Under the pieces are notes generated by a model, which saw only the letters and a list, made by a program, of their open reading frames with translations, was not told where the DNA came from and searched no databases. From an uncultured Nitrospirales bacterium (GTDB taxonomy: Bacteria > Nitrospirota > Nitrospiria > Nitrospirales > UBA8639): a stretch of DNA of 64,000 nt. Location: NCBI GenBank assembly GCA_951812745.1, contig OX638327.1:1601914-1665913 (forward strand). The letters are read 5' to 3'. Position numbers and translations under genes: made by a program. Positions 6,361 through 46,534 of this stretch are shown piece after piece; the first letter of the stretch is position 1, and each line of letters starts with the position of its first letter.

Positions 6361-6396
6361 CCCCTCACCCTACCCTCTCCCGCGAGGGGAGAGGGT
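6361..6396. repeat. Dispersed palindromic repeat, family A, copy 1
   Basis: A CCCTCACCC tract is followed by the inverted pair CCCTCTCCC / GGGGAGAGGG. Related copies occur at about 17655, 21470, 25068, 39881 and 47072, always between genes. This copy lies between the GlcG-like gene and pcm and could act as a hairpin in the shared transcript. Confidence 0.75.
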
Positions 6397-21469: not shown

Positions 21470-21510
21470 CCCCTCTCCCCTTGAGGGAGAGGGCTGGGGT
21501 GAGGGGAGAA
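21470..21510. repeat. Dispersed palindromic repeat, family A, copy 3
   Basis: CCCTCTCCCC / GGGAGAGGG with the flank CTGGGGTGAGGGGAG. It lies between divergent nuoF-like and purE genes, well upstream of both. Confidence 0.75.
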
Positions 21511-35754: not shown

Positions 35755-37553
35755 GTCTACAGGATCTGACCGCGCTCGTCGTGGGATTCACGTTTGTGCT
35801 GTATATCGGGATTGCTTTCTGGACCCGCGCCAACAGCACCAGTGAGTTTTATATCGCCGGGAAACACGTCCCGCCCGTGGCCAACGGCATGGCCACCGCG
35901 GCCGACTGGATGTCCGCCGCGTCCTTTATCAGCATGGCGGGGCTGATCGCCTTTCTCGGGTATGAAGGCAGCATGTACCTCATGGGCTGGACCGGCGGGT
36001 ACGTGTTGCTGGCCATGCTGCTCGCGCCGTATTTGCGCAAGTTCGGCAAGTTTACCGTGCCGGAATTTATCGGCGAACGGTATGACTCGGATCTGGCCCG
36101 CTTCGTGGCCGCGCTGTGTCTCATCTTCATCTCCTTTACCTACGTGGCGGGACAAATGCGCGGGGTCGGCATCGTGTTTTCCCGTTTCCTCGAAGTGGAG
36201 ATCGACGTGGGTCTGGCCGTCGGGATGGGTATCGTGTTTATCTACGCCGTGCTCGGCGGCATGAAGGGCATTACCTACACGCAGGTGGCGCAATACTGCG
36301 TGTTGATCTTCGCCTATACCGTGCCCGCCGTGTTTATCTCCATGCAATTGACCGGCAACCCCGTCCCGCAGTTGGCCCTGGGGTCCACCATGGCGGACGG
36401 GTCCGGGTATCTCCTGCTGAAACTGGATCAGGTGCTCATGGATCTGGGGTTCAACGCCTATACGCACCCCTTCAACGACAGTTCCATGATCAACGTGCTG
36501 GCCATTACGTTTGCCCTGATGGCGGGGACCGCGGGCCTGCCCCACGTGATCGTGCGGTTTTTTACCGTGCCCCGCGTGGCCGATGCACGACGCTCCGCGG
36601 CATGGGCCCTGGTCTTTATCGCGCTGCTCTATACCGTCGCCCCCGCCGTCGGCGGGCTGGCGCGCTTGAATCTCATTACGACCGTCAACGGCCCCGATGG
36701 GACCGGCACCCCCTATGACACCATGCCGGACTGGTTTCGCACGTGGGAACACTCGGGTCTGATCGCCTGGTACGACCACAACCACGACGGCAAGGTCCAA
36801 CATGCCGCGGGCCGTGCCTTTGCCGGAGGCAAACCCGTCTTTGATCGTGAAGCCCGTGGCGAATCAGGCCAGCGCCTGGTCACGAATCCCGGTCCTGGCG
36901 ACGTGGCCGAGGGCGCGCCCTTTGCCAATGAAATCTACGTGGACCGGGACATCATGGTCCTTGCCAACCCGGAAATTGCCGGCCTGCCCGATTGGGTGAT
37001 TGCCCTGATTGCCGCCGGTGGCATTGCCGCGGCCCTGTCCACCGCCGCGGGCCTGTTACTGGTGATTTCCGTGGCCGTTTCCCACGACATCCTGAAAAGC
37101 ACCTTCGCGAAAAACCTGTCGGACAAACAGGAATTGACCGCCGGCCGCGTCGCCGCGGCCGTGTCCATTGGCATCGCGGGGTATCTCGGGTCCAATCCCC
37201 CGGCGTTCGTGGCCCAGGTGGTGGCGTTCGCCTTCGGGCTGGCCGCCTCGTCCCTGTTCCCGGTCATCCTGCTGGGCATCTTCAGTACGCGCATGAACAA
37301 ATGGGGTGCCATTGCCGGGATGCTGACGGGGCTCATCTTTACCATGGGATATATCATTTATTTCAAAGGCGTGTTTATCGCGCCCATGGCGGAGAACGTC
37401 CCGGCCAACTGGTTGCTCGGCATTTCGCCGGAAGGCATCGGCACGGTCGGCATGGTCCTGAACCTGTGCGTCGCCCTGACGGTCTCGCAATTCACCGCAC
37501 CACCGCCTGAAAAGATCAGGGCCTTGGTCGAACGCATCCGTCTGCCGGAATAA
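35751..37553 (+). CDS. Sodium:solute symporter, large subunit (VC_2705-type)
   Basis: 600 residues from ATG 35751, a multi-pass SSS-family transporter. SEFYIAGKHVPPVANGMATAADWMSAASF is the conserved first core region, followed by GYVLLAMLLAPYLRKFGKFTVPEFIGERY. The later GAIAGMLTGLIFT region and the loop rich in Asp/His near 340-400 fit the subfamily that pairs with DUF4212. Related symporters move acetate, lactate or other monocarboxylates with sodium. The substrate is not settled by sequence. Confidence 0.92.
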   Translation: MSLQDLTALVVGFTFVLYIGIAFWTRANSTSEFYIAGKHVPPVANGMATAADWMSAASFISMAGLIAFLGYEGSMYLMGWTGGYVLLAMLLAPYLRKFGKFTVPEFIGERYDSDLARFVAALCLIFISFTYVAGQMRGVGIVFSRFLEVEIDVGLAVGMGIVFIYAVLGGMKGITYTQVAQYCVLIFAYTVPAVFISMQLTGNPVPQLALGSTMADGSGYLLLKLDQVLMDLGFNAYTHPFNDSSMINVLAITFALMAGTAGLPHVIVRFFTVPRVADARRSAAWALVFIALLYTVAPAVGGLARLNLITTVNGPDGTGTPYDTMPDWFRTWEHSGLIAWYDHNHDGKVQHAAGRAFAGGKPVFDREARGESGQRLVTNPGPGDVAEGAPFANEIYVDRDIMVLANPEIAGLPDWVIALIAAGGIAAALSTAAGLLLVISVAVSHDILKSTFAKNLSDKQELTAGRVAAAVSIGIAGYLGSNPPAFVAQVVAFAFGLAASSLFPVILLGIFSTRMNKWGAIAGMLTGLIFTMGYIIYFKGVFIAPMAENVPANWLLGISPEGIGTVGMVLNLCVALTVSQFTAPPPEKIRALVERIRLPE

Positions 37554-37576
37554 AGGTGGTCGCCCCGTATATCCGC

Positions 37577-37616
37577 TTGACAATCCCTCATGTTAGTCAT
37601 AATGTTAGCTAACATT
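37577..37616 (+). promoter_or_regulatory. Promoter and palindromic operator of the Phd/VapC operon
   Basis: TTGACA (37577-37582), a 17-base spacer and TAATGT (37600-37605) form a good sigma-70 promoter. A perfect 16-base palindrome, AATGTTAGCTAACATT (37601-37616), overlaps the -10 box and start site, with a half site ATGTTAG at 37590-37596. This is the expected arrangement for autorepression by the antitoxin. Confidence 0.75.
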
Positions 37617-37633
37617 CCATCAAGGAGTCGGCG

Positions 37634-37867
37634 ATGGTCACAGTGAACGTTCATGAAGCGAAAACCAACCTGTCACGCCTGCTCGCGCAAGTCGAGGGCG
37701 GCGAAGAGGTGGTCATTGCGCGCAACGGGAAGCCGGTTGCCCAACTCGTGCTTGTCAAGAAACGAGGCAAGCGACAATTCGGCTCTATGAAAGGCCGGAT
37801 AAAAATCGACGACAGCTTCTTCGACCCCCTACCGGAAGAGGAATTGGCCGCTTGGGAAGGTCGTTGA
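37634..37867 (+). CDS. Phd/YefM-family antitoxin
   Basis: 77 residues. VNVHEAKTNLSRLLAQVEGGEEVVIARNGKPVAQLVLV is the standard antitoxin DNA-binding fold, with an acidic C-terminus (IDDSFFDPLPEEELAAWEG) that binds the toxin. It precedes a PIN toxin by three bases and has a strong ribosome binding site (CAAGGAG). A clean palindromic operator lies just upstream. Confidence 0.9.
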   Translation: MVTVNVHEAKTNLSRLLAQVEGGEEVVIARNGKPVAQLVLVKKRGKRQFGSMKGRIKIDDSFFDPLPEEELAAWEGR

Positions 37868-37870
37868 GCA

Positions 37871-38257
37871 TTGCAACTCCTCCTCGACACCCATACGTTC
37901 CTTTGGTGGTTTTCCGGGAGCAACCGCTTATCGTTTCCTGCCCGGGAGCAAATCGAGGACGACAGCAATGACGTTATGATCAGTGCGGCATCGGCCTGGG
38001 AGATCGCCACCAAACATCGGCTCGGCAAACTCCCTGAGGCGACGGCGCTCGCCCTCGACATTTCAGGAGCAATAGCCAGACAGGACTTCGAGGAACTGCC
38101 AATCACTGTCAAAGACGCAGCCCGCGCCGGCGCGTTGCAGGGTACCCTTCGCGACCCCTTCGACCGGATCCTGATAGCCCAGGCACTTGCGCGCGACCTC
38201 GTTCTCGTCTCGATTGAGACATTCTTCGATCAATACGGCGTTCGCCGGCTCTGGTGA
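37871..38257 (+). CDS. PIN-domain toxin (VapC family)
   Basis: 128 residues, starting at TTG 37871. The four PIN acidic residues are visible in LLLDTHTFLWW, SAASAWEIATKHRLG, LRDPFDRILIAQAL and the C-terminal ETFFDQYG. It is predicted to be a magnesium-dependent ribonuclease neutralized by the adjacent antitoxin. The pair is complete, unlike the one at 4641-5248. Confidence 0.9.
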   Translation: MQLLLDTHTFLWWFSGSNRLSFPAREQIEDDSNDVMISAASAWEIATKHRLGKLPEATALALDISGAIARQDFEELPITVKDAARAGALQGTLRDPFDRILIAQALARDLVLVSIETFFDQYGVRRLW

Positions 38258-38293
38258 TCCGGAGAATTCCCTTCAGAGCCTGAACAACTCTGA

Positions 38294-38427
38294 TTGTCGG
38301 GTTACGCCTGCGGCTAACCCGACCTACGGTTTCTCGTCAAACAGAAATTTTATTCGAGTTCCCTCTACGGTAATGGCCGGTCAGGTGTTTTTGACGCACC
38401 GGAAGCCGGCGTGGGCGTGGGGATAGT
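38294..38427. repeat. Duplicated egtB 3' end with repeat element, copy 1
   Basis: 134 bases matching 38443-38576 with a single visible difference (G/A). The segment contains the palindrome GTCGGGTTACGCC...GGCTAACCCGAC and the last 15 codons plus stop of the egtB-like gene. This copy is detached from the gene by a 15-base spacer. Confidence 0.9.
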
Positions 38428-38442
38428 AGCATTGACCGGAAG

Positions 38443-38576
38443 TTGTCGGGTTACGCCTACGGCTAACCCGACCTACGGTTTCTCGTCAAACAGAAATTTT
38501 ATTCGAGTTCCCTCTACGGTAATGGCCGGTCAGGTGTTTTTGACGCACCGGAAGCCGGCGTGGGCGTGGGGATAGT
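38443..38576. repeat. Duplicated egtB 3' end with repeat element, copy 2
   Basis: The gene-attached copy of the 134-base direct repeat. It covers the 3' end of the egtB-like gene and the adjacent palindrome. Confidence 0.9.
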
Positions 38577-39828
38577 CCTGGCGGAACCAATTCCGGAACG
38601 AACGACGCAACAGGCATGAGGCCGTGGTGGAGGCACCGCCTTTGACGATGAAATGGTCGTCGTCGAAGAAACGCGCGGAGTATCCGGGATAGGTGGGATA
38701 GGGTTCGAAGCCTTCGAATGGATGGAAGCGCGTCGCGGTCCATTCCCATCCGTTCCCGACTAATTGGGAAACCCCGAAGGCGCTGTCGCCTTGCGGATTG
38801 GCCGTGACCGGGATCGGATCCCAAAATCGAAAGTGAAAATTCCCGTGCACGCCGTTGGTGATCCGGTTTCCCCAAGGATAGGCACGCTCTTCGCCGTTTG
38901 GCGTCCCGTACGCCGCCCGATGAAATTGCGCTTCGGTCGGAAGCGAGAGGCCGGCCCATTGCGCATAGGCCTGCGCATGGCTCAGGGACACGTAGACGGG
39001 CCAATGCGGGGGAAGCGGCATTTCCTGGAACATCGTCAACAGGAACCAGCGCTCCCCGCGTTTGACCCAAAACGGGGGGACTGGACCGCCCTGTTCGACG
39101 AACGCTGTATATTGTTGATTGGTGATCTTGTATTTGCTGATTGCAAAGGCCGGCACGTCTTCCCGGTGTTCGCCGAATTCATTGTCCCAGCCGAACCCGT
39201 CACGACGGCCGAGCGTCGCCACGCCTTGGGGAACGTCGATCATGACGTGATCGGGGGGCGGACTTTCAGGCGGTGGTGACAAAGGCGGCGCATTTTTTAC
39301 GTCACGAGCCACGTGATGTAGCAGGTAGGCCGTGGTTTCGGCGTGCATCCACCGATGCTCGATCGCCATGCGCAGGACGGTTTCCGGAGCGTCTTCCAGT
39401 GCCGCATCAACCGATTCCCTCGCTCTGACGTTGTACTGCAGGATTTCTTTGAGCGAAGGCCAGTCCGAGGGCACGTCGGCCTGCTGCGAGCCCACCTCGG
39501 GATCGATGCCGGCCTCGAACAGTGAGTCAAACGTGTCGTGAAAGGAAGGCTGTCCCAATGCCCAGCGACAAATCTGGTTCCAATCAAACGCCTCCAAATG
39601 GCCGAGGTAAAACACGACGCGATGGCGTTCCGGGATGGGACGCTCATAGAGCGTCTCCGGTTGAAACCGGGAAAAGATGTGGTCGGTGCAGGCCCGCGCC
39701 GCGGATAATTCCTTTCGTATTTCGACTAAACGCGGCATAATTTCCGGCACGATCAGGTCCTTTTGCAATAAGGCGGGGTCCGCTTTCCCGTGTGACTCCC
39801 GTCGCAGGAGCGTAATGGCTTCTCTCAC
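38530..39828 (-). CDS. egtB: EgtB-type sulfoxide synthase (DinB_2 plus formylglycine-enzyme-like domain)
   Basis: 432 residues. The N-terminal DinB-like domain holds the predicted iron ligands: YLGHLEAFDWN and the HxxxHxE motif in HRWMHAET. The C-terminal formylglycine-generating-enzyme-like domain has LVGNGWEWTATRFHPF, YPGYSARFFD and LRRSFRNWFRQDYPHAHAGFRC. EgtB is a mononuclear non-haem iron enzyme that joins hercynine and a thiol in ergothioneine synthesis. It is divergent from an OpuC-type transporter, beyond which lie egtD and an egtE-like gene. A selenoneine-type role (SenA) is less likely because EgtD is present and selenium genes are not. Confidence 0.85.
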   Translation of the reverse strand: MREAITLLRRESHGKADPALLQKDLIVPEIMPRLVEIRKELSAARACTDHIFSRFQPETLYERPIPERHRVVFYLGHLEAFDWNQICRWALGQPSFHDTFDSLFEAGIDPEVGSQQADVPSDWPSLKEILQYNVRARESVDAALEDAPETVLRMAIEHRWMHAETTAYLLHHVARDVKNAPPLSPPPESPPPDHVMIDVPQGVATLGRRDGFGWDNEFGEHREDVPAFAISKYKITNQQYTAFVEQGGPVPPFWVKRGERWFLLTMFQEMPLPPHWPVYVSLSHAQAYAQWAGLSLPTEAQFHRAAYGTPNGEERAYPWGNRITNGVHGNFHFRFWDPIPVTANPQGDSAFGVSQLVGNGWEWTATRFHPFEGFEPYPTYPGYSARFFDDDHFIVKGGASTTASCLLRRSFRNWFRQDYPHAHAGFRCVKNT

Positions 39829-39880
39829 GCGGTCTTTTTTATTATATCCCTAGTCGGGCCTTGTCAAGAAGAAACGTTGA

Positions 39881-39927
39881 CCCCCTCACCCCAGCCCTCT
39901 CCCTCCAGGGGAGAGGGAGTTGGAGGG
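39881..39927. repeat. Dispersed palindromic repeat, family A, copy 5
   Basis: CCCCCTCACCCCAGCCCTCTCCC / GGGGAGAGGG. It lies between divergent egtB and the ABC transporter operon. Its right edge merges with the GGAGGG ribosome binding site of the ATPase gene. Confidence 0.75.
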
Positions 39928-39931
39928 AACG

Positions 39932-40684
39932 ATGAACCCATCCGCCCTGAGTATCCGCGACGTCAGCAAGGAGTTCAGCCCCGGCGTTCGTGTCCTCACG
40001 CACGTCGATCTCGAAGTGGTGCAAGGCGAAACCCTGATCCTGATCGGGGAAAGCGGGTCCGGGAAAACGACCTTGCTGCGGATGTTCAACGGGTTGACTC
40101 ATCCCAGTTCCGGAGAGGTTTGCATCCATGGCGAACCGATACAAGTCAAAGATCCCATCGATCTCCGTCGCCACGTCGGGTACGTGCAGCAGGACGCCGG
40201 GTTGCTGCCGCATTGGACCGTTGAGGAAAACGTTGGCCTCGTGGCGCTGTTGCTCGGATGGGAGCCCGAACGACGAACCAGCAGGGTGCATGAACTCCTG
40301 GACCTTGTGCAGCTTGACCCGCAACAATTTCGCGCGCGTTATCCCATTGAACTGTCCGGCGGGCAACGCCAACGCGTGGCCTTTGCCAGAGCCCTCGCGG
40401 CCGATCCCGCGATTGTCCTGCTGGATGAACCCTTTGGCGCGCTCGACGCGATTACCCGGCATGAACTCCAGCGTCAATTCCTGGGCCTGAAGCAACGTCT
40501 CAAGAAGACCATGGTCATGGTCACCCACGACGTCGATGAGGCGCTGCGGCTCGGCGACCGCATCGCGGTGTTGAAGGATGGACACCTCCTGCAGACCGGA
40601 ACCGCGACCGACCTTCTCAACGCTCCGGCCCACGACTACATTGTGCAATTGCTTCGCCATCGATCCCATGGAGACCACTCATGA
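39932..40684 (+). CDS. OpuC-type ABC transporter ATPase (quaternary amine / EgtV-like)
   Basis: 250 residues from ATG 39932. Walker A is GESGSGKTT, the signature LSGGQRQRVAFAR and Walker B VLLDEPFGALDA, followed by MVTHDVDEALRLGDR. The ATPase group is that of glycine-betaine/carnitine/choline importers; no CBS pair follows, so it is the short form. The stop overlaps the start of the permease gene by four bases. Location between egtB and egtD suggests a related betaine such as ergothioneine or hercynine as cargo. Confidence 0.92.
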   Translation: MNPSALSIRDVSKEFSPGVRVLTHVDLEVVQGETLILIGESGSGKTTLLRMFNGLTHPSSGEVCIHGEPIQVKDPIDLRRHVGYVQQDAGLLPHWTVEENVGLVALLLGWEPERRTSRVHELLDLVQLDPQQFRARYPIELSGGQRQRVAFARALAADPAIVLLDEPFGALDAITRHELQRQFLGLKQRLKKTMVMVTHDVDEALRLGDRIAVLKDGHLLQTGTATDLLNAPAHDYIVQLLRHRSHGDHS

Positions 40685-42237
40685 CCCGAGGTCTTCATTC
40701 GGTGTGTTTGGTGGCGCTGGTCTTTTTCGTGCTGCTACCCTCGCCGGCCTTTTCGCAGGAGGACCGCATCGTCGTCGGTTCGAAAAACTTTATGGAGAGC
40801 AAACTCCTGGCTGAAATTTTCGCGCAACTCATTGAAGCCCGCACGGATCTTGCCGTGGAACGGCGCTTGGGTCTGGCGGGCACACAGGTCTGTTTCGAAG
40901 CCCTTCGCACCGGAGCCATCGACCTCTATCCCGAATACACGGGTACCGGGCTGGTCAGCATTCTCCAGCAACCGCCGACCGGAGATGCACGGACGGCGCT
41001 TAACGTCGTTCGTGCGGAGTTTCTCAAGCGTTGGGATTTGTGGTGGCTGAGTCCTTTGGGGTTTGAGAACGCCTATGCGCTCGCGATTCCTCGCTCTCGA
41101 ACGGATGGCGCCCCCCTGCGCACCATTTCGGATCTCGTCAAAATTGCGCCTTCCCTAACGGGAGGGTTCGGGTATGAATTCATCAACCGGCCCGATGGCC
41201 TACCCGGTCTTGAAACCCGGTATGGCCTCACCTTTCAACGCGTGCAGGCCATGCAGCAGTCCCTGAAATACCAGGCGGCCGCTGCCGGTGAGATCGACGT
41301 GCTCGACGTGTATACCACCGACGGAAGGCTTGCCGTGTATGACTTCGTGGTGCTGGAAGACGATCGACAATTTTTCCCGCCCTATGAAGCATCCGGACTC
41401 ATTCGAGGCTCGACGCTTGCAGAGCACCCCGAGTTGGGATCCATCCTGGGATTGCTGGCCAACGCGTTCGACGCCGGGACCATGCGGCAATTGAATTATC
41501 GCTTGCAGGAAGGCGGCGAATCGCCGGAGGTCGTGGCGCGCGATACCCTGTCGGCCCTCCACCTGTTAACCGGCGATGAGGCCGTCACCCAACCGGTTCC
41601 TCATCGAGACGGACTCCTGGCTTATGCCTGGTCAAAGCGAACGACGCTGATGCGCCGGACAATCGAACATCTGAGCCTGGCCGGGCTGGCCTTGGGGTTG
41701 GGGATCCTCGTGGCCGTTCCATTGGGTTTGCTGCTCGAACGTCACCACACGGTTGCCGAACCCGTCATTCGAGGCATCGGACTCACACAAACGATCCCGT
41801 CCATCGCGTTGCTCGCCTTCATGATCCCGGTGTTCGGGATCGGCATGCTACCGGCCGTGATCGCCTTATGGATTTATTCCCTGTTTCCGATCGTGCGCAA
41901 TACCTATTCCGGCCTCCGCGATGCCGCGCCACAGGCCGTGGACGCGGCTCGCGCGCTCGGCATGACGGAATGGCAAATCCTGCACTGGGTCCGATTGCCT
42001 TTGGCTGCGCCTGTCATCATGGCGGGCGTCCGAACGGCCGGCGTCATCACCGTGGGCACCACGACGCTCGCCGCATTCATCGGCGCGGGAGGCTTGGGTG
42101 TGCCGATTGTTGCGGGACTACAGATGGCCAACACCACCGTGATCCTTTCCGGAGCGTTGCCCTCGGCGGCCCTGGCGTTGATGATCGACGGATTTCTCGG
42201 CAGGGTGGAAACGTGGGTCAGACCGCGTGGCGTCTGA
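40681..42237 (+). CDS. OpuC-type ABC transporter: substrate-binding domain fused to permease
   Basis: 518 residues in the order signal peptide, binding domain, permease. The binding domain (about 25-295) starts IVVGSKNFMESKLLAEIFAQLIE, with LYPEYTGTG and WLSPLGFENAYALAI, as in OpuCC/ProX-type proteins. The permease domain (about 320-515) has GLTQTIPSIALLAFM and AARALGMTEWQILHWVRLPLA, the coupling loop. In characterized EgtU the permease comes first and the binding domain last, so the order here is reversed. With the ATPase it makes a complete importer. Ligand identity is inferred from neighbours only. Confidence 0.9.
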   Translation: MTRGLHSVCLVALVFFVLLPSPAFSQEDRIVVGSKNFMESKLLAEIFAQLIEARTDLAVERRLGLAGTQVCFEALRTGAIDLYPEYTGTGLVSILQQPPTGDARTALNVVRAEFLKRWDLWWLSPLGFENAYALAIPRSRTDGAPLRTISDLVKIAPSLTGGFGYEFINRPDGLPGLETRYGLTFQRVQAMQQSLKYQAAAAGEIDVLDVYTTDGRLAVYDFVVLEDDRQFFPPYEASGLIRGSTLAEHPELGSILGLLANAFDAGTMRQLNYRLQEGGESPEVVARDTLSALHLLTGDEAVTQPVPHRDGLLAYAWSKRTTLMRRTIEHLSLAGLALGLGILVAVPLGLLLERHHTVAEPVIRGIGLTQTIPSIALLAFMIPVFGIGMLPAVIALWIYSLFPIVRNTYSGLRDAAPQAVDAARALGMTEWQILHWVRLPLAAPVIMAGVRTAGVITVGTTTLAAFIGAGGLGVPIVAGLQMANTTVILSGALPSAALALMIDGFLGRVETWVRPRGV

Positions 42238-42349
42238 CTTCGAGTATCTTGCACAAATGCGATTGACCCGTTACAGTAAGTATTCCACGAATTTACTCCT
42301 CTCTATTCCATAACCTATCCCATTATCATTGCGGCAAAGAGTCGATTTC

Positions 42350-43333
42350 ATGCTGAAGCAATCCAATATTATTATCGACGTGCACCTGAACAACCAGAAT
42401 CCCGATGCCGTCAAGGAAGAGATTCGCGCGGGCCTGCTTTCGACTCCACGGACACTTCCCACCAAGTACTTTTATGATGAACGAGGATCCGAGCTTTTTG
42501 AGCAAATCTGCGAATCGCCGGAATACTACCCGACGCGCACGGAACACGAATTGTTGAAAACCGTGGCCGATGACGTCGTGACCCGAAGCGGCGCCGATGA
42601 ACTGGTGGAGTTGGGCTCCGGAGCCGCGACCAAGACCCGGGTCGTGTTGGACGCCATGGCCCGGGCGAAACAACTCCGCTTCTACGTCCCGTTCGACGTC
42701 AGCGAAGGCATCGTACGACGGGTCGCGCACGAGCTTGTCGAGGAATACGAAGGATTACAGGTTCACGGCGTCGTGGGAGATTTCCTGGCTCATCTGGAAC
42801 ATATTCCGCAGGGCGGGAAACGCCTGGTCATGTTTCTAGGCGGGACCATCGGCAACCTGGGACCTGAAGCCGTTCCGGCATTTCTGTCGTCGGTCTTTGA
42901 TGAAATGGATCAAGGAGATTTCTTGCTTCTTGGGGTTCAACTCATCACCGACGCAGATCGCCTGGAAGCGGCGTATAATGATTCAGCCGGGCTCTCCGCC
43001 GCTTTCAACAAGAATATGTTGCACGCATTACAGCCCGTGCTTGGAGCCGCATTCGATCCTGAGGCCTTTGATCACGTGGCACGATTCAATCGATCCGAAC
43101 ATCGAATTGAAATGCATCTTCGATCGGTTCGAGAGCAAGTGATTCCCATTCCCGAATTGGAGTTAACCCTTCACCTCGAAGAAGGGGAAGAAATTCTCAC
43201 GGAAATCAGCACGAAATATACGGGTCCCCACGTGGAAGCCCTGCTGACCCAGGCGGGATTCAGCCCCATTGCCTGGTATACCGATCCGGCCCACCTGCAC
43301 GGTCTCGCCTTGGCTCAAAAGCCTTCCGGCTGA
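42350..43333 (+). CDS. egtD: L-histidine N(alpha)-methyltransferase
   Basis: 327 residues from ATG 42350. TLPTKYFYDERGSELFEQICESPEYYPTRTEHELL is the family signature. The SAM site is LVELGSGAATKTRVVLDAM, followed by FLGGTIGNLGPE and GDFLLLGVQL. EgtD trimethylates histidine to hercynine, the first step of ergothioneine synthesis. It ends three bases before the PLP-enzyme gene. The 113-base gap after the transporter may hold its own promoter. Confidence 0.93.
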   Translation: MLKQSNIIIDVHLNNQNPDAVKEEIRAGLLSTPRTLPTKYFYDERGSELFEQICESPEYYPTRTEHELLKTVADDVVTRSGADELVELGSGAATKTRVVLDAMARAKQLRFYVPFDVSEGIVRRVAHELVEEYEGLQVHGVVGDFLAHLEHIPQGGKRLVMFLGGTIGNLGPEAVPAFLSSVFDEMDQGDFLLLGVQLITDADRLEAAYNDSAGLSAAFNKNMLHALQPVLGAAFDPEAFDHVARFNRSEHRIEMHLRSVREQVIPIPELELTLHLEEGEEILTEISTKYTGPHVEALLTQAGFSPIAWYTDPAHLHGLALAQKPSG

Positions 43334-43336
43334 TTC

Positions 43337-44425
43337 ATGATTTATCTGAATTACGCAGCCCTGTGCCCGACTCTTGCAGCGGCTGAGGAGGAAGTTGAAC
43401 GGACGCTGGCCGAGTTCAAGCGCTATTTGTACTCGGAAGCCGGCATCAAGTGGTATCTCCGGAAAGTTCGTGATTGCCGGCAAAAAGCCGGTGCCCTGTT
43501 GCACGTCAGTGATCCCTCGACCATCGCGTTCACCACGAATGCGTCCACCGCGCACTATCTCACGCTCTCTTCTTTGAAATGGAAACCGGGCGATACCATT
43601 CTCACCACCACGCACGAAAACCCGTCCATCACGAGGCAGCTTCGCGCGCTCGAACACGAAGGCATCCGCGTTCACGCGGTCAGGCCGACGTCCCTTGAAA
43701 CATTCCTGCATACGCTGGAAGAACGAGTCAACGAGCCCGGCGTCAAAGCTATCGTGATGAGTCACGTGTCGCACGTTGACGGGCGGGTGTTTCCCGTCCA
43801 TGACGTGGCGTCATTGGCCAGGGCCCGGCAGTGTCTGGTCGTCATCGACGGCGCACAAGCCGTCGGGCATATCCCCGTAGATCTGAATGCACTCGATTTC
43901 GACAGCTATTTTTTTGCCGGACACAAGTGGTGTGAAGGCCCGCTCGGCACTGGGGCGATAGTGATGCGTGAGAGTTTTTTTGCCCATCCCCGCTACCGCG
44001 CGATCGAAGAAGAACACCATGCTGAGTCGCCGGCGGGCTCATTTGAAATCGGGACGCAGAACATCGGGCTCATTGCGGGACTCGCCGAGGCCTGCGAGCA
44101 ACGACATCAACGGGGCATCGACGCAGCACCACAGCGGATCTTTCGGGAAACAGCCAGGGAACTGCTGGGCGGGAACCCGAATTGTCGTTTCATGGAATGG
44201 CAGGGCCCCCACGCGCCCGGCATCCTCACGCTCAAAGGACCGGACGACCTGGATCATGGAGCATTCGCCAAACGGCTTGCATCCGAAGCGGAAATCGTCG
44301 TGAAACCCTTCGTGGATTACCCGGAAGCCGACGCACCTGCGATTCGGCTGTCATGGTCTTCGACCATGGATCAACGGGAATTTCAGAAGGGTGTTTCGAC
44401 GATTGCGCAACGGCTCGGATCGTGA
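43337..44425 (+). CDS. Class V aminotransferase-fold PLP enzyme, candidate EgtE C-S lyase
   Basis: 362 residues. The PLP lysine is in FFAGHKWCEGPLGTGA and the aspartate in VVIDGAQAVGHIPVD; FTTNASTAHYLTL binds the phosphate. The fold covers cysteine desulfurases and the EgtE lyase that cleaves hercynylcysteine sulfoxide to ergothioneine. It follows egtD by three bases, which favours the EgtE role. A cysteine-desulfurase-like activity is the alternative. Confidence 0.85.
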   Translation: MIYLNYAALCPTLAAAEEEVERTLAEFKRYLYSEAGIKWYLRKVRDCRQKAGALLHVSDPSTIAFTTNASTAHYLTLSSLKWKPGDTILTTTHENPSITRQLRALEHEGIRVHAVRPTSLETFLHTLEERVNEPGVKAIVMSHVSHVDGRVFPVHDVASLARARQCLVVIDGAQAVGHIPVDLNALDFDSYFFAGHKWCEGPLGTGAIVMRESFFAHPRYRAIEEEHHAESPAGSFEIGTQNIGLIAGLAEACEQRHQRGIDAAPQRIFRETARELLGGNPNCRFMEWQGPHAPGILTLKGPDDLDHGAFAKRLASEAEIVVKPFVDYPEADAPAIRLSWSSTMDQREFQKGVSTIAQRLGS

Positions 44426-44432
44426 CCCATCT

Positions 44433-44600
44433 GTATTTGTAGGGGCCGCATCTCATGCGGCCCAGAGAAGCGCCATGAGATGGCGCAGCTACAAAAGAGG
44501 GAGAAGACGGCACCATGAGCTATTTCCCTCCTACTGAGTAGCGGCGGCATCCCGGGTCAAAGCCCGGGGCATGCCTTATGCCGCCCCACGGCACCGCGTG
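44433..44600. repeat. Two hairpin elements between convergent genes
   Basis: GGGCCGCAT CTC ATGCGGCCC (about 44444-44464) is a perfect nine-base-pair hairpin. A second structure pairs GGCGGCAT (about 44542) with ATGCCGCC (about 44578) around an internal CCGGG/CCCGG stem. They separate the egtE-like gene from the channel gene and may terminate both. Confidence 0.6.
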
Positions 44601-44611
44601 CACAAACACCA

Positions 44612-45424
44612 TCAAGGTGCATGTCCAGGCTGACGTTCCAGGCGTTCCTCCAAGCGGCGCAAGGCCTGCTGGGTCGAGCGAAGGTCGCGCAGGATTTCTT
44701 CACGTGAGACGGGTTGTTCCAGTTCTCGAAGGCGTTCGGCCTTGGCTTCTTCGAGATTGTTGAGCACCACCGCAATAAAGAGATTGATCACCACGAACGT
44801 GCCGACCACCACAAAGCTGACAAAGTACAGCCACGCCAACGGGTGCAGTTCCATCGCGGTATACATGATGTCCGTCCAATCTTCCAACGTCACGACCCGG
44901 AACAACGACAACAGGGAGATGCCCAGGTTTCGCCAATGGACGGGATCATGCTCGTGAAACAGTTGGTAGCCCGTAATCGCATAAATATAAAAGATGATGC
45001 TCATCAGGAGCATGACGTGTCCCATACTCGGGATGGAACGCACGAGCGTCGTGACGATCAACCGCAATTCCTGAATCGTGGAAATCAACCGCAGGACCCG
45101 CAATAACCGGGCGAGCCGGGCGATCATGGCATACTCGCCGGTCGCGGGAAGCAGCGAGAACACAATCACCGAAAAATCGAAGACGTTCCACCCGTCCCGG
45201 AAATACCGGTCGACCTGCGGGGCCACGGCAACCATCTTCACCAGGGCTTCGAGAATGAACACGGCCAATACGAATTGGTTCCCCAGGTGCATCCATTCTC
45301 CATAATGGCGAACCAGGGCAGGAGACGTCTCCATGCCCAACAACGCCCCATTCCCGAGAATGAGCGCGATTATCACGTATTCAAACGCGGGAGCATTGAC
45401 CAGTCGTTGCGCGAACCGTTTCAT
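44612..45424 (-). CDS. Voltage-gated-like ion channel (NavBac type)
   Basis: 270 residues with six membrane spans. The S4 voltage sensor has spaced arginines in ARLARLLRVLRLIS (103, 106, 109, 112). The pore loop reads FRVVTLEDWTDIMY, so the selectivity filter is TLEDW (179-183), close to the TLESW of NaChBac. The C-terminal tail from about 225 is a coiled coil, as in the tetrameric bacterial sodium channels. Sodium selectivity is likely but the Asp in place of Ser could admit other cations. Confidence 0.9.
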   Translation of the reverse strand: MKRFAQRLVNAPAFEYVIIALILGNGALLGMETSPALVRHYGEWMHLGNQFVLAVFILEALVKMVAVAPQVDRYFRDGWNVFDFSVIVFSLLPATGEYAMIARLARLLRVLRLISTIQELRLIVTTLVRSIPSMGHVMLLMSIIFYIYAITGYQLFHEHDPVHWRNLGISLLSLFRVVTLEDWTDIMYTAMELHPLAWLYFVSFVVVGTFVVINLFIAVVLNNLEEAKAERLRELEQPVSREEILRDLRSTQQALRRLEERLERQPGHAP

Positions 45425-45505
45425 CGTCTGTGACCTTTACCTGTTTTTGTGCAATAAAAGAATGAAGATCGGGAAGGCCATGAGAACCGGGCCTCCTGCC
45501 GTACC

Positions 45506-46417
45506 CTACCCCAACCCGCATTGTCCGAGTCGATGCTCCAGGGTTTGCGTTTGCGTCAAGGCATCAAGTTGAAGATCATGGCCCCCGGTCTGCGCAAGGG
45601 CCTCCTGAGGGATCAGTCCCACCAACTCGCTTTTCACCACGGCCACGCCTTTGAGCGCCGCCGCCCGCTTCACGGCTTCGAATGCCACGTGAACGGGCGT
45701 GTGGCGATAGTCGGTGAGATTCATCGACACCTGGACGCAGCCCCGGCTTTTCAGTTCCACCCCGATGGCCTTGACCCCCGGCAGCCCGCCGTTCGACGCA
45801 CGGATGCTCCCGGCGATATCCCGTGCCAGGGCGACATCGTGACTCTGCAAGACCACGTTGAAGGCAATGAGCGGATCACGAGCCCCGACCGCGATCACGC
45901 CGGCCGTGGGGTGCGGCTCGGACGGACCGAAATCCGGAGCCCACGCCCGGTCGGTTGTCATTCGCTTCATCAGAGCCTCCGGGCCCCCTTTGCGGATCTG
46001 TTCCAATCTCTTGCGGAAGGGTCGTTCGCAGGCTTCCTCATACAGAAAGACCGGTATCCGCAGTTCCCGCCCGATTCGCGCCCCGACCCGATGCGCGAGC
46101 CGAACGCATTGCTCCATGGTCGAGCCTGCCAACGGAACGAACGGCAACACGTCACACGCCCCGAGACGAGGATGCTGGCCCGCGTGATTCTGAAGATCGA
46201 TCAATTCCGAAGCCTTGGCAACCACCGCAAACGCGGCCTCCTCCATCGACTCGACGAACCCGGCCATGGTCAGGACGCATCGGTGGTGGTCCGCATCCAG
46301 ATGCCGGTCGAGCAAGGCCACTCCTTGAATCGCGGTCAGGGCGTTTTCGAGTTGTTCGATCACCCCCGGATCGCGGCCCTCACTGAAATTGGGAATACTC
46401 TCGACAATGCCGGCCAT
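45506..46417 (-). CDS. ftcD: Glutamate formimidoyltransferase
   Basis: 303 residues covering the N-terminal transferase domain of FtcD. The family blocks are IVESIPNFSEGRDPGVI, LDRHLDADHHRCVLTMAG, DLQNHAGQHPRLGACDVLPFVPL and ACERPFRKRLEQIRKGG. The cyclodeaminase domain is absent, as in many bacterial enzymes. It moves a formimino group to tetrahydrofolate, linking histidine breakdown or purine chemistry to one-carbon metabolism. No hut genes are nearby. Confidence 0.93.
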   Translation of the reverse strand: MAGIVESIPNFSEGRDPGVIEQLENALTAIQGVALLDRHLDADHHRCVLTMAGFVESMEEAAFAVVAKASELIDLQNHAGQHPRLGACDVLPFVPLAGSTMEQCVRLAHRVGARIGRELRIPVFLYEEACERPFRKRLEQIRKGGPEALMKRMTTDRAWAPDFGPSEPHPTAGVIAVGARDPLIAFNVVLQSHDVALARDIAGSIRASNGGLPGVKAIGVELKSRGCVQVSMNLTDYRHTPVHVAFEAVKRAAALKGVAVVKSELVGLIPQEALAQTGGHDLQLDALTQTQTLEHRLGQCGLG

Positions 46418-46534
46418 GTCCCTGTTTACTGAAATCGCGCTTTGTTGACAACCTCAAAAAGGTGATATACAACTTCTGATAGGTTTTCATGCTTGCGAGC
46501 ATCGACCCTCTAGCCGATCAAAACAGGTGATCCC

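Follow-up and report, generated by a model that had tools for sequence, protein, structure and literature searches.

A betaine-type importer recurrently linked to ergothioneine synthesis genes in Nitrospirota and other phyla, and its possible role in recapturing hercynine or ergothioneine

A locus in the genome of an uncultured Nitrospirales bacterium places a betaine-type ATP-binding cassette (ABC) importer among genes for ergothioneine synthesis, which raises the question of what such an importer carries. The locus occupies positions 38530-44425 of the window, the 64,000-nucleotide stretch of DNA analysed here, which is part of a 2.35-Mb single-contig genome. The linkage between transporter and synthesis genes is real and recurrent: it extends over four phyla and involves transporters of two or more lineages and EgtDs of at least three. 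As to its meaning, we tentatively favour a make-and-recapture module, in which an AfProX-type importer would take up hercynine and/or ergothioneine.

The locus is composed of five genes. An EgtB-like iron sulfoxide synthase of 432 residues, recognised by domain and family profiles and built from DinB and FGE-sulfatase domains, is encoded on the minus strand (38530-39828). A divergent intergenic region (39829-39931) separates it from four plus-strand genes, which encode a betaine-type (ProV-like) ABC ATPase (39932-40684), a fused importer (40681-42237), the L-histidine N-alpha-methyltransferase EgtD (42329-43333, with an alternative start at ATG 42350) and an EgtE-like class-V pyridoxal phosphate (PLP) enzyme (43337-44425). 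This layout, with egtB divergent from the transporter, egtD and PLP genes, is as an earlier sequence-only reading of the window had described it. The ATPase start is placed at ATG 39932, which is preceded by GGAGG; the listed open reading frame begins upstream, at TTG 39920. The ATPase stop and the start of the fusion gene overlap by 4 bases, and the gap from egtD to the PLP gene is 3 bases. A hairpin scan of the locus found no terminator-like hairpin between the transporter and egtD, and a scan of 37000-46500 for RNA families found none.

The linkage was surveyed in 395 genomes of the phylum, searched with the fusion protein and the EgtD model. Binding-domain matches were counted at E < 1e-50, leaving out 13 of 63 matching genomes whose matches were weak, permease-only or partial. 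The transporter type is present in 50 genomes and EgtD in 65; both are found in 48, only the transporter in 2, only EgtD in 17 and neither in 328. Hence egtD accompanies 48 of the 50 transporter-positive genomes (47 without G334, whose egtD match is weak at 57.7 bits), compared with 17 of the 345 transporter-negative ones. All 44 transporter-positive genomes of the window's order have an EgtD match, including the weak one of G334. Species are not independent, so that a Fisher value for the co-occurrence overstates it. Adjacency is the stronger point: transporter and egtD lie at most 8 kb apart in 38 of the 50 transporter-positive genomes, which places the linkage beyond chance. The sequence-only reading had suggested looking for the transporter together with egtBD across Nitrospirota, and both the co-occurrence and the adjacency are found there.

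Gene order varies between families. The window's family has EgtB on the minus strand, followed by the ATPase, the binding-permease fusion, EgtD and the EgtE-like enzyme. In families f2 and f3 the permease and binding protein are separate genes, and the locus is arranged either as EgtB-EgtD-ATPase-permease-binding protein on one strand or as two convergent groups. The orders include EgtB>EgtD>ATPase>TMD>SBD and ATPase>TMD>SBD><EgtD<EgtB (TMD, transmembrane domain; SBD, substrate-binding domain).

The linkage extends beyond the phylum. A contig scan with one f3 binding protein yielded 80 named loci, mostly from Acidobacteriota, with some from Nitrospirota and Cyanobacteria and one from a Gemmatimonadetes metagenome-assembled genome (MAG). 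EgtB or EgtD scores above 100 bits in 29 of these loci (33 before EgtD-like matches under 100 bits were left out), and the 80 loci display several gene orders. Among the 42 loci whose contig extends more than 5 kb upstream and more than 3 kb downstream, 17 carry EgtB or EgtD beside the transporter. Sixteen genomes were examined further; in 11 of the 12 whose locus had no egt gene, EgtD is encoded elsewhere in the genome. In the acidobacterial class of a Bryobacteraceae MAG (locus L147), 84 of 151 genomes contain the binding protein, 99 contain EgtD and 72 contain both, and the two genes are at most 8 kb apart in 29 of the 72. Literature searches, with subscription papers mostly outside their reach, listed no paper on egtBD beside an OpuC-type importer.

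Two quick trees, supported by Shimodaira-Hasegawa-like approximate likelihood ratio tests (SH-aLRT) only, were built after leaving out near-identical rows (9 for the binding domain, 11 for EgtD). The binding-domain tree (127 rows) separates the window's clade (17 rows, support 99) from a larger egt-linked clade (94 rows, support 100). Its 17 linkage changes are inflated by short-contig loci being scored as unlinked, and loci L062 (family f2) and L129 appear to be one contig, with identical EgtDs and zero distance in the tree. In the EgtD tree (71 rows), transporter-linked EgtDs occur in three places, formed by the window's family, two cyanobacteria, and Acidobacteriota together with f2 and f3. 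EgtDs associated with a different, metallopterin-dependent ergothioneine synthase (MES) fall between these groups.

These results bear on whether the adjacency has any function at all. An old arrangement inherited vertically, or a neutral block transferred between genomes, would agree with the inheritance of the block within the window's family and with the 12 of 50 transporter-positive phylum genomes in which the genes are unlinked. Such neutral linkage is nevertheless disfavoured as very improbable, since the pairing spans four phyla, involves two lineages of the transporter and three of EgtD and occurs in several gene orders, and given a strong presence/absence association in two phyla.

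The fused importer contains 518 residues. A signal-like N-terminus precedes an OpuAC/ProX-type binding domain (Pfam OpuAC, 196 bits at residues 29-289) and a permease (Pfam BPD_transp_1, 81 bits at 345-514); the two domains extend over about 28-292 and 320-515, respectively. It is the only OpuAC protein in its genome. The ATPase is best matched by TIGR01186 (proV) at 265.3 bits, under the cut-off of 326.6. The AlphaFold2 model of the binding domain has a mean predicted local distance difference test score of 95.3, and its pocket is lined by K35, N36, F37, Y86, F128, Y132, E166, R170, Y211 and Y235. The domain shares 38% identity with SpEgtUC across the aligned region. In SpEgtU numbering, K242, T275, T296, N339, Y341, E375, R379, D381, Y419 and Y443 are all kept. 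According to this alignment, the kept contacts are those to the carboxylate, the trimethylammonium group and the imidazole nitrogens, and they are also present in fused AfProX-type proteins that are not egt-linked.

Several observations weigh against hercynine or ergothioneine as the ligand, most of them in the pocket. The window has F37, Y86 and F128 at EgtU positions G244, F293 and Y337. This F/Y/F combination agrees in all 26 family-type rows of the alignment, and the G244 position is phenylalanine in all aligned egt-linked relatives. According to PMC9732360, G244, F293 and Y337 are ergothioneine-specific hallmarks of EgtU, with G244 invariant, and the glycine-betaine protein AfProX has phenylalanine for G244, plus Y63 and F107. 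In Table 1 of the same source, the G244F mutation of SpEgtU lowers affinity about 100-fold, to an association constant of 2e5 per molar that is still micromolar, and F293Y causes a loss of about 10-fold. Both losses concern positions at which the window carries AfProX residues. The same pocket occurs in six fused transporters of the phylum without egt linkage (G068, G155, G308, G333, G350 and G354), all in egtD-positive genomes; since they share it, egt linkage has left no visible mark on the pocket contacts. A different cage (F341 and mostly N419) characterises the second egt-linked clade, again also in its unlinked members. Outside the pocket, the names EgtB and EgtE rest on scores under curated cut-offs. 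In addition, a match to a glycine-betaine transporter of the BCCT family is missing from 8 of 14 genomes in the window's genus, 6 of these with a betaine methyltransferase.

The second clade is large. It comprises the OpuC-type binding proteins of loci L062-L074 and L123-L202, which have phenylalanine for Y341 and asparagine, serine or aspartate for Y419, and it includes both egt-linked and unlinked members.

EgtU variants changed at positions 243 and 274 have been crystallised with ergothioneine, according to the titles of entries 9egj, 9egi and 9o5f. On alignment grounds, the window's pocket speaks against EgtU-like specificity yet leaves ergothioneine binding possible. The latter follows because the G244F protein retains micromolar affinity and ergothioneine is bound by the crystallised variants, whose changed residues we take to be AfProX-like.

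The importer shares with the EgtU/EgtV systems (S. pneumoniae EgtU, L. monocytogenes BilEB) an OpuAC-type (cluster F-III) fusion of binding domain and permease served by one ATPase, as well as the carboxylate contacts, E375 and the cage residues. It differs in domain order, since the permease precedes the binding domain in EgtU and follows it in the window. The window importer also adjoins biosynthesis genes, whereas the EgtU paper concerns import by cells that cannot synthesise ergothioneine (PMC9732360). Membership of EgtU was considered and is excluded by the pocket residues, the domain order with the binding domain first, and the tree position; in the binding-domain tree, the EgtU clade (5 rows, support 100) does not contain the window's domain. 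With the AfProX/OpuC-type glycine-betaine proteins, the window's domain shares the F-III type, the aromatic cage and the F/Y/F triad. Unlike them, it is fused to a permease and lies inside an egt operon, and its ligand is only predicted. The importer thus appears to be an AfProX-type quaternary-amine importer that may act like EgtU without being EgtU.

A structure search with the binding-domain model returned HpEgtU without ligand (Z 36.3), LmEgtU (Z 36.1) and an AfProX entry (Z 35.5), with OpuCC within Z 34-36. Because EgtU and AfProX-type structures tie, the fold comparison does not discriminate the ligand. The sequence-only reading had assigned EgtUV and the window transporter to the same OpuC-related family, which holds as a shared fold family, and had predicted ergothioneine or hercynine as the ligand. 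The data support a functional tie of the transporter to the egt genes, but the ligand does not follow from family membership, because the pocket is of the AfProX type at all three discriminating positions.

By sequence, the binding domain comes nearest, among solved proteins, to choline/nicotine-sensor derivatives and OpuBC/OpuCC relatives. Along with the changed cage (F341, N419) of the second egt-linked clade, they lend some weight to the import of another quaternary or trimethylated compound, such as choline, carnitine, proline betaine or another amino-acid betaine, with no more than a neighbourhood in common with the egt genes. We regard this as unlikely, as the equivalents of K242, T296 and R379 for carboxylate binding are kept, and therefore a betaine fits better than choline. 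The importer also recurs beside egtBD in independent lineages.

The pocket and the structural ties with AfProX, OpuCC, LmEgtU and HpEgtU (Z about 34-36) suit glycine betaine as well. A glycine-betaine or broad betaine importer could share a stress regulon with the ergothioneine synthesis genes and serve osmoprotectant uptake, or bring in a methyl donor to replenish the three S-adenosylmethionine molecules spent per hercynine. The AfProX-type residues at the discriminating positions, identical to those of unlinked fused transporters, are in its favour. So are the missing BCCT matches: in those genomes of the window's genus, betaine import could fall to the OpuC-type transporter. This explanation is the main rival, though we hold it somewhat less likely than recapture. 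In the window genome, synthesis and import of glycine betaine are already provided for by a separate locus, and the methyl-donor version requires a betaine-homocysteine methyltransferase. A control of 12 plasmid egtD loci, picked for annotation and taxonomic spread from 51 EgtD-bearing plasmid records, contains no betaine-type ABC importer within 7 kb (0/12, from PLSDB gene tables that are incomplete). On this count, a shared stress response alone seldom joins a betaine importer to egtD.

The glycine-betaine locus lies about 575 kb from the egt locus, at about 2218072-2221555 of the contig (G000:C1; 5073-8556 of locus L219). It contains a fused glycine/sarcosine and sarcosine/dimethylglycine methyltransferase (GSMT/SDMT; NF051855, 480.7 bits, cut-off 350), the second half of which scores 367 bits, below a cut-off of 550. 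The fusion is divergent from a betaine BCCT (NF047988, 675.9 bits, cut-off 650). Of 48 genomes of the window's family, 42 have GSMT and 34 have BCCT. A search for ectoine synthase gave no match in the window genome, and its control likewise gave none, so that this negative carries no weight. The sequence-only reading had held that a transporter located elsewhere with osmoprotectant genes would count against its proposal; a separate osmoprotectant locus does exist, but its transporter is a BCCT. Like the egt locus, this locus pairs a synthesis gene divergently with an importer. It differs in combining a secondary transporter with glycine betaine, versus an ABC importer with histidine betaine. 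Because glycine betaine is already made and imported at this separate locus, a second synthesis-plus-uptake pair, for histidine betaine, would be the more economical reading of the egt locus.

The identity of the synthesis enzymes is firmest for EgtD, which scores 337.4 bits on TIGR03438, over the cut-off of 290.9. The EgtB-like protein matches the Pfam domains FGE-sulfatase (148 bits) and DinB_2, and scores 184.9 bits on TIGR03440, below the cut-off of 360. It scores higher on the OvoA-N model (221) and on the SenA selenoneine synthase model NF041186 (191.1 bits, cut-off 420), both also below cut-off. Among solved proteins it matches EgtB-IV best (188.5 bits), followed by OvoA, OvsA and EgtB, and its motifs GH(77)LEAF and EH(158)RWMH(162)AE align with EgtB-IV. 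H77, H158 and H162 presumably constitute the three-histidine iron site. The EgtE-like enzyme scores 75.6 bits on TIGR04343, under the cut-off of 400. It has a class-V PLP fold with the PLP lysine K197 in a GHKW motif, and no cysteine past residue 283. The names EgtB and EgtE are reasonable on these grounds; the domains and fold fit the labels given by the sequence-only reading, although the scores below cut-off make them softer than it had written.

In the recapture module that we tentatively favour, EgtD would trimethylate histidine to hercynine, the EgtB-like enzyme would add the sulfur of cysteine using O2, and the PLP enzyme would cleave the sulfoxide-synthase product to ergothioneine. Cysteine is assumed as the sulfur donor because a genome search for EgtC, and with it the gamma-glutamyl-cysteine route, gave only a 28-bit match in a 619-residue frame. 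The importer, probably co-transcribed, would carry hercynine and/or ergothioneine, leaked from the cell itself or set free by neighbouring cells, back over the inner membrane. Its origin would lie among transporters of the glycine-betaine type and not in the EgtU lineage. In favour of this module are the recurrent linkage in independent lineages, the kept pocket contacts, the separate locus that serves glycine betaine, and the lack of a second OpuAC protein in the genome. Uptake for catabolism was also considered; a search of the window genome for the histidine-lyase/ergothionase family (PF00221) found no member.

A broader version of this reading is conceivable and calls for more caution. Producers in at least four phyla may have repeatedly recruited glycine-betaine-type ABC importers for hercynine or ergothioneine recapture, with pockets unlike that of EgtU, and import would then have evolved more than once and be present in producers as well as in scavenging organisms. 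The four phyla would be Nitrospirota, Acidobacteriota, Gemmatimonadota and Cyanobacteriota, perhaps with an AfProX-type cage in one clade and F341/N419 in the other. Bacterial ergothioneine import is so far known from organisms unable to make the compound. If makers also import, communities of soil bacteria, cyanobacteria and nitrifiers would leak, share or recycle ergothioneine or hercynine, and most importers would escape sequence rules of the EgtU type. Should the ligand instead be glycine betaine, the cross-phylum tie of betaine uptake to ergothioneine synthesis still needs explaining and can be tested.

Other ergothioneine systems were met in the survey. In further genomes of the phylum (loci L102, L103, L105, L106, L108, L110, L111, L112 and L114), egtD adjoins a protein of more than 1100 residues, which in all three that were scanned (L102, L105 and L110) combines a molybdopterin oxidoreductase and a class-V aminotransferase in one chain. 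A novel ergothioneine synthase had been suspected in the phylum; it corresponds to the known MES (PMC9516567). The MES locus of Caldithrix abyssi resembles the window in its EgtD-based synthesis, but the MES enzyme is O2-independent (PMC9516567), unlike the route predicted for the window. The transporter is absent from all nine fetched EgtD loci flagged as MES-type (0/9).

On Lactobacillales plasmids, a glutathione-reductase-like flavoprotein follows genes of the EgtU/ATPase type, and on an Exiguobacterium plasmid it follows egtBD (36% identity). It is encoded at 4878-6209 of L118, 4895-6226 of L119, 5366-6691 of L120 and 7928-9271 of L224, and is a candidate ergothioneine disulfide reductase. 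A Comamonas testosteroni plasmid (L223) has egtB-egtD beside msrB and an OsmC-family gene, and also carries sul1 and IS6100.

Within the window, an ion channel and glutamate formimidoyltransferase (FtcD) are encoded 3' of the egt genes (44612-46417), an arrangement that recurs across the window's family. FtcD is part of histidine degradation, yet the genome search found no member of the histidine lyase family. An inverted-repeat element lies in the divergent stretch that separates egtB from the transporter operon. This near-palindromic GC-rich repeat (CCCTCTCCC...GGGGAGAGGG) has three copies in the window, at 39895-39918, 6373-6396 and 21470-21493, against 0 matches expected in shuffled sequence, and the first of them lies directly upstream of the transporter operon.

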